This document shows positions 1-44,882 of a stretch of 44,882 nt of DNA, piece by piece (position 1 is the first letter of the stretch; each line of letters begins with the position of its first letter). The stretch is from positions 1 through 44,882 of the forward strand of contig JAHJSN010000123.1 of NCBI GenBank assembly GCA_018830445.1, given 5' to 3'. The notes beneath the pieces are model-generated. The model saw nothing but the letters and a program-made list of their open reading frames with translations. It made no database searches and had not been told where the DNA came from. This DNA is from Alphaproteobacteria bacterium. Its GTDB lineage: Bacteria > Pseudomonadota > Alphaproteobacteria > Rhizobiales > Hyphomicrobiaceae. The translations under genes were made by a program, and so were the position numbers.

Positions 1-69
1 AGTTGGTGCGGCACGTTCCGTGTCAATTAAGGCGCGATAAACGCCCCACTAAACCATTGACTCTGCTAG
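1..69. repeat. Palindromic repeat B, partial, inverted relative to the right-hand copy
   Basis: This block is the reverse complement, with a few mismatches, of the block at 44655-44751. Shared landmarks are a segment around TCAATTAAGGCGCG and the tail CACTAAACCATTGA. It ends at CTAG (66-69), where repeat A begins. Its left end lies outside the window, so the full length cannot be seen. No transposase gene is nearby, so it would be a non-autonomous element. Confidence 0.75.
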
Positions 70-141
70 TGGCCTTTATGTCTCGCCTAAATCGTCAGGG
101 GTTGCGGCCAGTACAGCGATTTAGGCGAGACAGGCCACTAG
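66..141. repeat. Palindromic repeat A, 76 bp, CTAG-bounded
   Basis: The element starts and ends with CTAG and is a long inverted repeat. The arm at its right end (CTAGTGGCCTGTCTCGCC... on the minus strand) matches the left arm over 25 bp, apart from a 4-base TTAT insertion in the left arm. The reverse complement closely matches 44583-44658, which is also 76 bp. RNA from either strand would fold into a strong hairpin. CTAG junctions and arms starting TAGTG suggest insertion at TA within CTAG, as known for IS630/Tc1-mariner-type elements; that assignment is inference. Confidence 0.85.
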
Positions 142-43507: not shown

Positions 43508-43708
43508 GTTGTCCTCCTTCGGGCGTTATTGCACTCAAGGATTGCTAACCGGCGGGATCGCTCAATCGTTCCAAGACCTGCTCTGCGATTGACTTCGCCG
43601 GCCGCAGGGGCGAAAAGCGCGCGTAACCCTCCAGCCGGGCGGCAACGTGCCGAACTCCGTATCGCCGCGCACCACCCAAACGCCCCATCAATGAATGGAA
43701 TGCCGCGA

Positions 43709-44569
43709 ATGAGCCACGCCGATCTCATCAAGACAATCGAGGATGCCTTCGAAGCGCGAGACAGCGTCACGACCTCAACCAAAGGTCCGGTTCGCGATGC
43801 GGTCGAGAACGCACTCAACCTGATGGACGGCGGGCAGATCCGTGTCGCGGAAAAGGGCGCCGACGGCAATTGGGTCGTCAACCAGTGGGCGAAAAAGGCC
43901 GTGCTTCTGTCGTTCCGGCTGAACGACAACGAAGTCATCCCGTTTCAGAAGAGCGGCACGTTCGCCAGCCGCGTGCACGGCTGGGATAAGGTTCCCCTGA
44001 AGTACGGCGACTGGCTCGCGGATCAATTCAAGGAAGCCGGTTTTCGCGCGGTGCCCGGGGCCATCGTCCGCCACTCCGCCTATATCGCGCCGGGCGTCGT
44101 GCTGATGCCGTCGTTCGTCAACCTCGGGGCCTATGTCGGCAGCGGAACCATGGTCGATACATGGGCAACGGTCGGATCGTGCGCACAGATCGGCAAAAAC
44201 TGCCATATCTCCGGTGGCGCCGGCATCGGCGGCGTGCTTGAGCCGCTGCAGGCCGGTCCGGTCATCATCGAGGACAACTGCTTCATCGGCGCGCGCGCGG
44301 AAGTCGCCGAGGGCGTCGTGGTCGGTGAAGGATCGGTGCTGTCGATGGGCGTGTACCTTGGTGCATCGACGAAGATCATCGACCGTGCGACCGGCGAAGT
44401 GCACATGGGGCGCGTGCCGCCGTTTTCGGTCGTCGTTTCAGGAACGATGCCGGGCAAGCCGCTGCCGGACGGAACGCCAGGGCCTGGACTTTATTGCGCC
44501 GTGATCGTGAAGACCGTCGACGCGAAAACGCGCTCGAAAACCGGCATCAACGAGTTGCTTCGCGACTAG
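43709..44569 (+). CDS. dapD: DapD, tetrahydrodipicolinate N-succinyltransferase
   Basis: DapD adds succinyl-CoA to tetrahydrodipicolinate in the succinylase branch of lysine and diaminopimelate synthesis. A helical N-terminal domain ([16 protein letters not shown]) is followed by left-handed beta-helix hexapeptide repeats ([20 protein letters not shown], then [18 protein letters not shown]) and the family [12 protein letters not shown]. The length is 286 residues from ATG 43709; an ATG at 43691 is in frame, and neither has a strong ribosome-binding site. The stop codon TAG forms part of the CTAG where the repeat block begins. Confidence 0.96.
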
Positions 44570-44582
44570 TGGCCTGTCTCGC
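44566..44582. repeat. 17-base direct duplication at the edge of repeat A
   Basis: CTAGTGGCCTGTCTCGC occurs at 44566-44582 and again at 44583-44599, where the full repeat A begins. The first copy is a fragment, starting at the CTAG that contains the dapD stop codon. It could be the scar of an earlier insertion or a slippage duplication. Confidence 0.85.
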
Positions 44583-44658
44583 CTAGTGGCCTGTCTCGCC
44601 TAAATCGTTGTGCTGGCCGCAATCGCTGACGATTTAGGCGAGACATAAAGGCCACTAG
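44583..44658. repeat. Palindromic repeat A, 76 bp, second copy
   Basis: CTAG-bounded inverted repeat, close to the reverse complement of 66-141 and of the same length. The 4-base insertion (ATAA) is here in the right arm, as expected for an inverted copy. The few differences are in the loop (CTGGCCGCAATCGCTG region). Confidence 0.88.
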
Positions 44659-44751
44659 GTAAATCAATGGTTTAGTGTGGCGTTCAGCGCGCCTCAATTG
44701 ACAAATCCTGTGCGGCACCAACAGGTCAATTAAGGCGCGGGGCCACACTAG
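44655..44751. repeat. Palindromic repeat B, complete copy
   Basis: The block runs from the CTAG shared with repeat A to the CTAG shared with repeat C. It has inner inverted arms (TAGTGTGGC...CGCGCCTCAATTGAC against GTCAATTAAGGCGCG...GCCACACTA). The first 18 bases, up to the TA at 44673, are a spacer that is also present in the left-end copy, so A, spacer and B were copied together. Confidence 0.82.
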
Positions 44752-44882
44752 TGTTCCGACTCTGACATATGGTTCCCTGCCGGGAACCTGAATGTCAGCC
44801 CGGAACACTCAGCCCAGAAGACTAGGCAACCTTTTGATTGTGTTCTGGATTCACAAACATTTGACGACCTCCACCCGGGAAT
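44748..44882. repeat. Palindromic repeat C, second copy, cut by window end
   Basis: It matches 40067-40212 in the same orientation: the GGTTCCC/GGGAACC hairpin is identical, and GGCAACCTTTTGATT and the second hairpin's left arm follow. It has about 14 extra bases (CTCAGCCCAGAAGA) between the hairpins. The right end lies outside the window. Confidence 0.85.

Follow-up and report, generated by a model that had tools for sequence, protein, structure and literature searches.

A chain of short CTAG-associated elements at a contig end of a Hyphomicrobiaceae draft genome, one of the families with IS630-like ends

We analyzed a stretch of 44,882 nucleotides (referred to as the window; contig JAHJSN010000123.1 of assembly GCA_018830445.1, positions 1 to 44,882 of the forward strand), which is contig 101 of a draft genome of 213 contigs (4.15 Mb, 97.5% complete) from a member of the Hyphomicrobiaceae. 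The last 317 bases of the window follow a dapD-like gene and consist of a 17-base scrap of the end of a hairpin designated A, a complete element designated AB, and the first 131 bases of a second element designated CD (Table 1). Near this end, CTAG starts at positions 44566, 44583, 44655, 44748, and 44822; the TAG stop codon of the dapD-like gene falls within the first of these, and the 17-base fragment (44566-44582) adjoins hairpin A directly on its 5' side. Contigs of the draft often stop inside or just past an AB or CD element (25 of 60 rows were so flagged), and the window has one such element at each end. The two families probably explain the fragmentation of the draft assembly, and with so many contig ends at these elements, their copies are probably undercounted.

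Table 1. Features of the window that bear on the element chain
Feature	Position	Strand	Basis
dapD-like gene (tetrahydrodipicolinate N-succinyltransferase; start codon not settled)	43529..44569	+	ORF; PF14805 and hexapeptide repeats
CTAG at the end of the dapD-like gene, presumed original target	44566..44569	.	Sequence; role presumed
A left-end fragment, 13 bases (17 with its CTAG)	44570..44582	+	Repeat families D1 and D2
CTAG common to the A fragment and AB	44583..44586	.	Sequence
AB element (161 bp, TG...CA), made up of hairpin A ending at 44654, CTAG, linker, and hairpin B starting at 44676	44587..44747	+	Equal 161-bp unit in other copies; fold
Between hairpins A and B: internal CTAG closing hairpin A (44655-44658), 13-base linker GTAAATCAATGGT, and TTAG opening hairpin B (44672-44675)	44655..44675	.	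Sequence, other copies
CTAG common to AB and CD (chain junction)	44748..44751	.	Sequence
Hairpin C of CD; left end IS630-like, closest to the IS right end	44752..44807	+	Copy comparison, end matrices
Variant C/D linker with internal CTAG (44822-44825)	44808..44840	+	Sequence, copy comparison
Start of hairpin D; the remaining ~20 bases of D and a CTAG would fall past the contig end	44841..44882	+	Comparison with 151-bp CD copies
Second AB copy, truncated by the other contig end; its A hairpin ends at the CTAG at 138-141	1..141	-	Sequence, A-end matches

The original prediction, made from the sequence of the window, described four palindromic units in which each junction was one CTAG. Such junctions were found between the fragment and A and between B and C, but not between A and B, which are separated by CTAG, the linker, and TTAG. 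Hairpins A and B and their 13-base linker are one element of 161 bp rather than two chained units: among 54 distinct A-left ends in the genome, 28 had a readable B end, and the length was 161 bp in 26 of these 28 copies. The 26 A-left ends with no readable B end comprised contig ends, variants, and lone A hairpins (e.g., locus L239). The ends of AB-type elements read TGGCCTGTCTCGCC... and TGTGGCGTCGCGCC.... Likewise, C had been taken as a complete unit ending at 44825; in most other copies, it does not stop there, and the linker leads on to hairpin D, the fourth. CD is thus a second two-hairpin element, 137 or 151 bp long in 51 of 66 copies, and lone C hairpins were few (L099 and L137). The borders of both elements, whose variation from copy to copy would have spoken against the prediction, are largely constant. 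At three loci (L090, L097, and L132), short repeats around GTCAGCCCGGAA lengthen the C/D linker, and the elements reach 169 to 215 bp.

The strong palindromes predicted for the window end were confirmed by folding as single-stranded DNA, in which AB had a z score of -9.9 and an intact CD elsewhere in the genome (L103) a z score of -9.3, with 0 of 200 shuffles folding equally well in each case. An Rfam scan gave three matches, all far below the gathering scores, and no known RNA family. AB and CD are mini-transposons (MITEs): they are mostly 137 to 161 bp long, contain no transposase gene, have inverted ends, and occur in many copies. Besides, target-site duplication and empty sites were found, the duplication being seen for CD at several loci and for AB in one unusual copy and the nested locus L114. 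A third CTAG-associated family, F, sampled in 1.47 Mb (e.g., L109), was 71 bp long in 18 of 20 copies and had the ends TGTAGCTTTT and TGGTGCGCAC. Its flanks were more varied, with CTAG on both sides in 6 of 20 copies, and it is perhaps older than the other families.

Searching the whole genome for the units, as had been proposed, we found 267 C-type ends (20-base C end, up to 3 mismatches, a count that takes in related ends such as TGTTCCGGCTCCGACA) and 76 A-type ends (up to 1 mismatch), and the reversed-pattern controls gave 0 for both. Pairing of ends in 28 contigs (1,465,815 bases) yielded 42 CD, 26 AB, and 20 F elements, a few of the AB pairs being off in length and possibly mispaired. CTAG itself is rare in this sample (712 occurrences in 1.47 Mb, 61% GC); roughly one-third of the 709 sites analyzed touch an element. 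Beyond this genome, which is one of the 7 of 99 genomes with CD-like matches, CD was found in members of the genus (G003, G004, and G008) and of the family (G024, G025, and G043); the same search of 99 genomes gave no CD-like match in G001 or G007. An exact-pattern search of viral contigs detected no AB or CD ends, and blastn of the 317-base chain against plasmids and phages detected no match. In a Rhodobacteraceae metagenome-assembled genome, an exact 20-base C end lies beside a reading frame that, by eye, resembles the C terminus of an IS630 transposase.

AB and CD have spread by insertion into CTAG, which is left at both ends. This follows from empty orthologous sites and from an AB element nested in a CD element. 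The joined flanks of 16 CD sites were searched in 8 other genomes of the genus, of which G007 gave no match. Junction-crossing alignments identified empty sites for L106 in G003, G004, G005, G006, and G008, for L134 in G003, for L124 in G003 and G002, and for L164 in G004. In every empty site read, the element was absent, the flanks were colinear, and at most one tetramer's length was present; several further matches end at or near the junction and are uninformative. At L114, AB sits inside the internal CTAG of a CD element with CD halves on both sides, and the common CD represents the empty form of this site. At L253, AB adjoins a linker-D half, and the C half was not seen there. The proposal of repeated insertion into CTAG, with a CTAG at either end of each inserted element, is supported by both the related genomes and the nested copy.

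The predicted duplication was that of TA, with flanks lacking a TA or CTAG duplication named as evidence to the contrary. The flanks do carry a CTAG duplication. Since copies flanked by CTAG on both sides cannot separate a TA duplication from a CTAG duplication, we examined those with unusual tetramers. Using exact C ends, we collected 17 CD copies whose left tetramer either began with a base other than C (11 matches) or began with C and ended with a base other than G (6 matches), a set that leaves aside tetramers of the form CNNG (e.g., CTCG and CGAG). The right end was readable in 11 and unreadable in 6. Eight of the 11 readable copies, at 7 loci, had the identical tetramer on the right (TTAG twice, ATAG once, CTAC twice, and CTAA three times, including a tandem pair of copies with one CTAA in common), and the other 3 were unequal (GTAG/CTAG twice and TAGC/CTAG). 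Starting from the right, 7 ends had CTA followed by A, C, or T; of the 6 readable copies, 4 were identical on both sides and already in the left-side set, and 2 were unequal (CTAG/CTAC and CTAC/CTAT).

A wider tally of 66 CD copies, enriched in unusual ones by design, contained 48 CTAG/CTAG, 6 identical non-CTAG (two of these six being the tandem pair), and 12 unequal pairs; L151, L153, and L164, which belong to the unusual-left set, were excluded from it by a filter. When the right tetramers were permuted, 0.30 identical non-CTAG pairs were expected, compared with the 6 observed, and 6 was reached in 0 of 20,000 permutations. Of the 42 CD copies in the unselected 1.47 Mb, 28 were CTAG/CTAG, 2 were identical non-CTAG, and 12 were other; the corresponding numbers for 26 AB copies were 17, 1, and 8. 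The identical unusual AB pair was a single copy (CGAG/CGAG), and an unequal AB pair, TTAG/CTAG, was also present. Further unequal CD pairs included CTAT/CTAG, CTAG/ATAG, and a number that differ in the inner TA, and relatives supplied a CTAG/CTAA copy (L064) and a GTAG/CTAG copy (L072).

These data bear on the view that the elements are ordinary IS630 MITEs, which would duplicate TA only and carry the flanking C and G as part of their ends. TA duplication is textbook behavior for this family and is given for IS630 and ISY100 in PMC2170065. The CTAG/CTAG majority fits both models, and the GTAG/CTAG, CTAG/CTAC, TTAG/CTAG, and CTAG/CTAA copies fit TA duplication, but CTAA and CTAC on the left are disallowed by that model, and neither the 8 identical pairs among 11 nor the permutation result agrees with it. 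We consider it unlikely that TA-only duplication accounts for the elements. As to the unequal pairs, some have the form expected of TA duplication, and point mutation may explain them too. In our reading, CD makes a 4-bp duplication (NTAN, mostly CTAG) that is later altered by point mutations, and a minority of true TA events is possible. We infer from the single CGAG copy that the same 4-bp rule extends to AB.

IS630 itself prefers CTAG. The prediction had suggested that the units are nonautonomous relatives of this family and that a transposase with matching ends should be sought. A single DDE_3 match was present in the genome, an intact IS630-family transposase of 370 amino acids (PF13358; NF033545, 275 bits), encoded by an element of 1174 bp with CTAG at both ends (L061). 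Over the 30 bases with which C begins, counting its CTAG, 24 positions match the right end of this IS630. For a broader comparison, we built end matrices from L061 and 12 relatives (13 full-length elements in all, hand-picked from those with both ends read) and from 18 elements (five added; L180, a duplicate of L179, and a second L171 copy were excluded). The left end of C scored 30.8 against the right-end (R) and 25.7 against the left-end (L) matrix with 13 elements and 30.1 and 24.0 with 18, and the right end of D scored 25.2 (L) and 22.1 (R) with 13 elements and 23.2 (L) and 21.3 (R) with 18; each was reached by 0 of 2000 shuffles. Scores were far lower at the inner CD ends, which 70 and 243 of 2000 shuffles reached with 13 elements and 120 and 349 with 18. 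The four AB ends scored as shuffled sequences do (reached by 277 to 1759 of 2000 with 13 elements and by 170 to 1615 of 2000 with 18). Hence, the outer ends of CD, but not the ends of AB, show homology to the ends of this IS630 subgroup, and the predicted relationship is supported for CD and not for A and B. The assignment of C to the IS right end and of D to the IS left end would be a modest preference only.

On these sequence comparisons, CD probably arose by deletion from an IS630 subgroup that targets CTAG. Because the search gave a single IS630 copy and C matches its right end at 24 of 30 positions, the actual mobilizer of CD may be a lost relative. Facing pairs of AB-type ends were also sought in the 1.47 Mb, and among the few pairs listed, none had the look of a clear IS. 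All 18 full-length IS630 elements with both ends read are flanked by CTAG/CTAG, which fits a TA as well as a CTAG duplication; an IS630 copy at L173 has CTAC on its left, and no right end was found for it. ISRj1-type copies (~40% identity) in a Bradyrhizobium plasmid had no such ends. In the L061 IS630, at positions 2080-2097 of that locus, and in several relatives, the transposase frame stops at the TAG within the CTAG of the right end, much as dapD does in the window, and IS630 relatives with a stop codon in the flanking tetramer are among L176-L180 and L183-L185, which are on viral contigs.

A 4-nucleotide duplication of CTAG or YTAA is also known for IS5-group elements, and CD shows a duplication of this kind (for AB, a single copy has CGAG on both sides), where the 2-bp TA duplication anticipated for an IS630-derived element is replaced by a 4-bp one at 7 loci with some unequal exceptions. 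According to PMC3189936, CTAG or YTAA is the site that MITEPsy1 of Pseudomonas syringae inserts after and duplicates, and its authors derive this MITE from ISPsy2. Such an origin is possible for AB. However, the outer ends of CD match those of the IS630 subgroup, and the MITEPsy1 ends (GGAAGGTCTG...) are unlike TGTTCCGACTC, as judged by eye only. We see a slim chance that the elements are IS5-type MITEs. High-copy palindromes beside a fixed tetranucleotide, with paired hairpins, further recall the GTAG-tagged REPs described in PMC3733652, and REP or BIME palindromes are moved by RAYT, a tyrosine transposase. In the draft (97.5% complete), there was no RAYT gene above the model cutoff, the sole Y1 transposase match, which lies at a contig end, being an IS200-type fragment that scored 42 bits with the RAYT model, whose cutoff is 80, and AB and CD have tetramer duplications and symmetric ends; we give the REP explanation hardly any credence.

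Our preferred reading, which we regard as likely, is that the window ends in a chain of nonautonomous elements, AB and CD after an A-end scrap, inserted into CTAG with a 4-base duplication, CD being derived from IS630. AB and CD, each running TG...CA, would insert into CTAG and rarely into another site, mostly NTAN. The four target bases would be duplicated, CTAG would again stand at both ends, and the next element could land there. A transposase of the IS630 subgroup acting in trans, presumably by cut and paste, would be the likely mobilizer of CD, and AB, which uses a like target with unrelated ends, may be moved by another enzyme. An order of insertions in the window is likewise presumed.

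How often elements adjoin was assessed at the 709 CTAG sites of the sample, where an element's outer end was found on one side at 141, on both sides at 18, and on neither at 477, and 73 sites involved internal ends. A crude simulation with random CTAG sites predicted 11.5 (standard deviation, 3.0) two-sided sites, compared with the 18 seen (P = 0.025). CTAG targeting alone thus predicts the greater part of the chaining, though slightly less than the whole. Since lost insertions in genes would presumably raise the expected number of chains, we do not claim a special mutual attraction of the elements from this crude model. Any preference for stop codons would be weak (34 of 141 element flanks, compared with 157 of 954 background sides). 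In genome G010, two full IS630 copies have one CTAG in common.

The chain could instead have arisen by tandem duplication or by recombination between repeats. Arrays of this sort exist, since locus L082 of G003 (G003:C97) holds head-to-tail CD units with a period of 130 joined at CGGT, which represent tandem duplication and not CTAG insertion; another may be the pair sharing CTAA at L160, and the 17-base A fragment could be a recombination scar. On the other hand, different elements, AB and CD, are joined at one CTAG, the 18 two-sided sites comprise mixed junctions of 13 kinds, and L114 is a nested insertion. Duplication or recombination in place of successive insertions is therefore an improbable source of the chain.

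Gene-less elements of the MITE kind are already known; what is unusual here is a 4-bp duplication together with IS630-type ends, for which one precedent was found. ISHsp2 of Halomonas sp. ZM3 is an IS630-family element with a 4-bp TTAA duplication, which its authors contrast with TA-duplicating relatives (PMC3606827); it resembles CD in these respects, whereas it is a complete IS whose transposase is encoded by two ORFs and whose target is TTAA. RUP of Streptococcus pneumoniae, associated with IS630-Spn1, is, like CD, short, high-copy, and gene-less, with IS630-like ends and no transposase of its own, but it is a single 107-bp unit at TA-containing sites, and CD has two hairpins, the target CTAG, a 4-bp duplication, and chaining with an unrelated element (PMC2229807 and PMC3049150). 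ISAzs31 of Azospirillum and other IS630 elements on Roseovarius, Sulfitobacter, and Microvirga plasmids are full-length and have CTAG on both sides, and the right end of ISAzs31, CTAGTGTTCCGACTCTAACGTTTG, closely resembles that of C; unlike CD, they are autonomous (1.14 to 1.18 kb), and those read all lie in CTAG, which fits either duplication length. MITEPsy1 shares the 4-nucleotide CTAG/YTAA duplication and differs by its IS5-type ends, GTAG-tagged REPs and REPINs are likewise abundant palindromes tied to a tetranucleotide and differ in being RAYT associated, and MITEPye1 is an IS1182-type MITE (PMC3189936, PMC3733652, and PMC11578231, respectively). By title or abstract start, our literature searches of open-licence PMC papers found no paper describing AB or CD, and the available parts of PMC6956133 and PMC8024623 contain nothing relevant to these elements.

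It is possible, and we put it forward tentatively, that a widespread alphaproteobacterial IS630 subgroup makes 4-bp staggered insertions at CTAG in place of 2-bp ones at TA and that two unrelated MITE families of a single genome, sharing this tetramer, form mutually chained mosaics as each insertion provides a new target. If the 4-bp duplication is true of the transposase itself, this would be a further bacterial exception to the 2-bp TA stagger of the IS630/Tc1-mariner group. AB and CD furthermore illustrate how mobile DNA can restore the target it uses, and they are able to sit on a stop codon, as at dapD.
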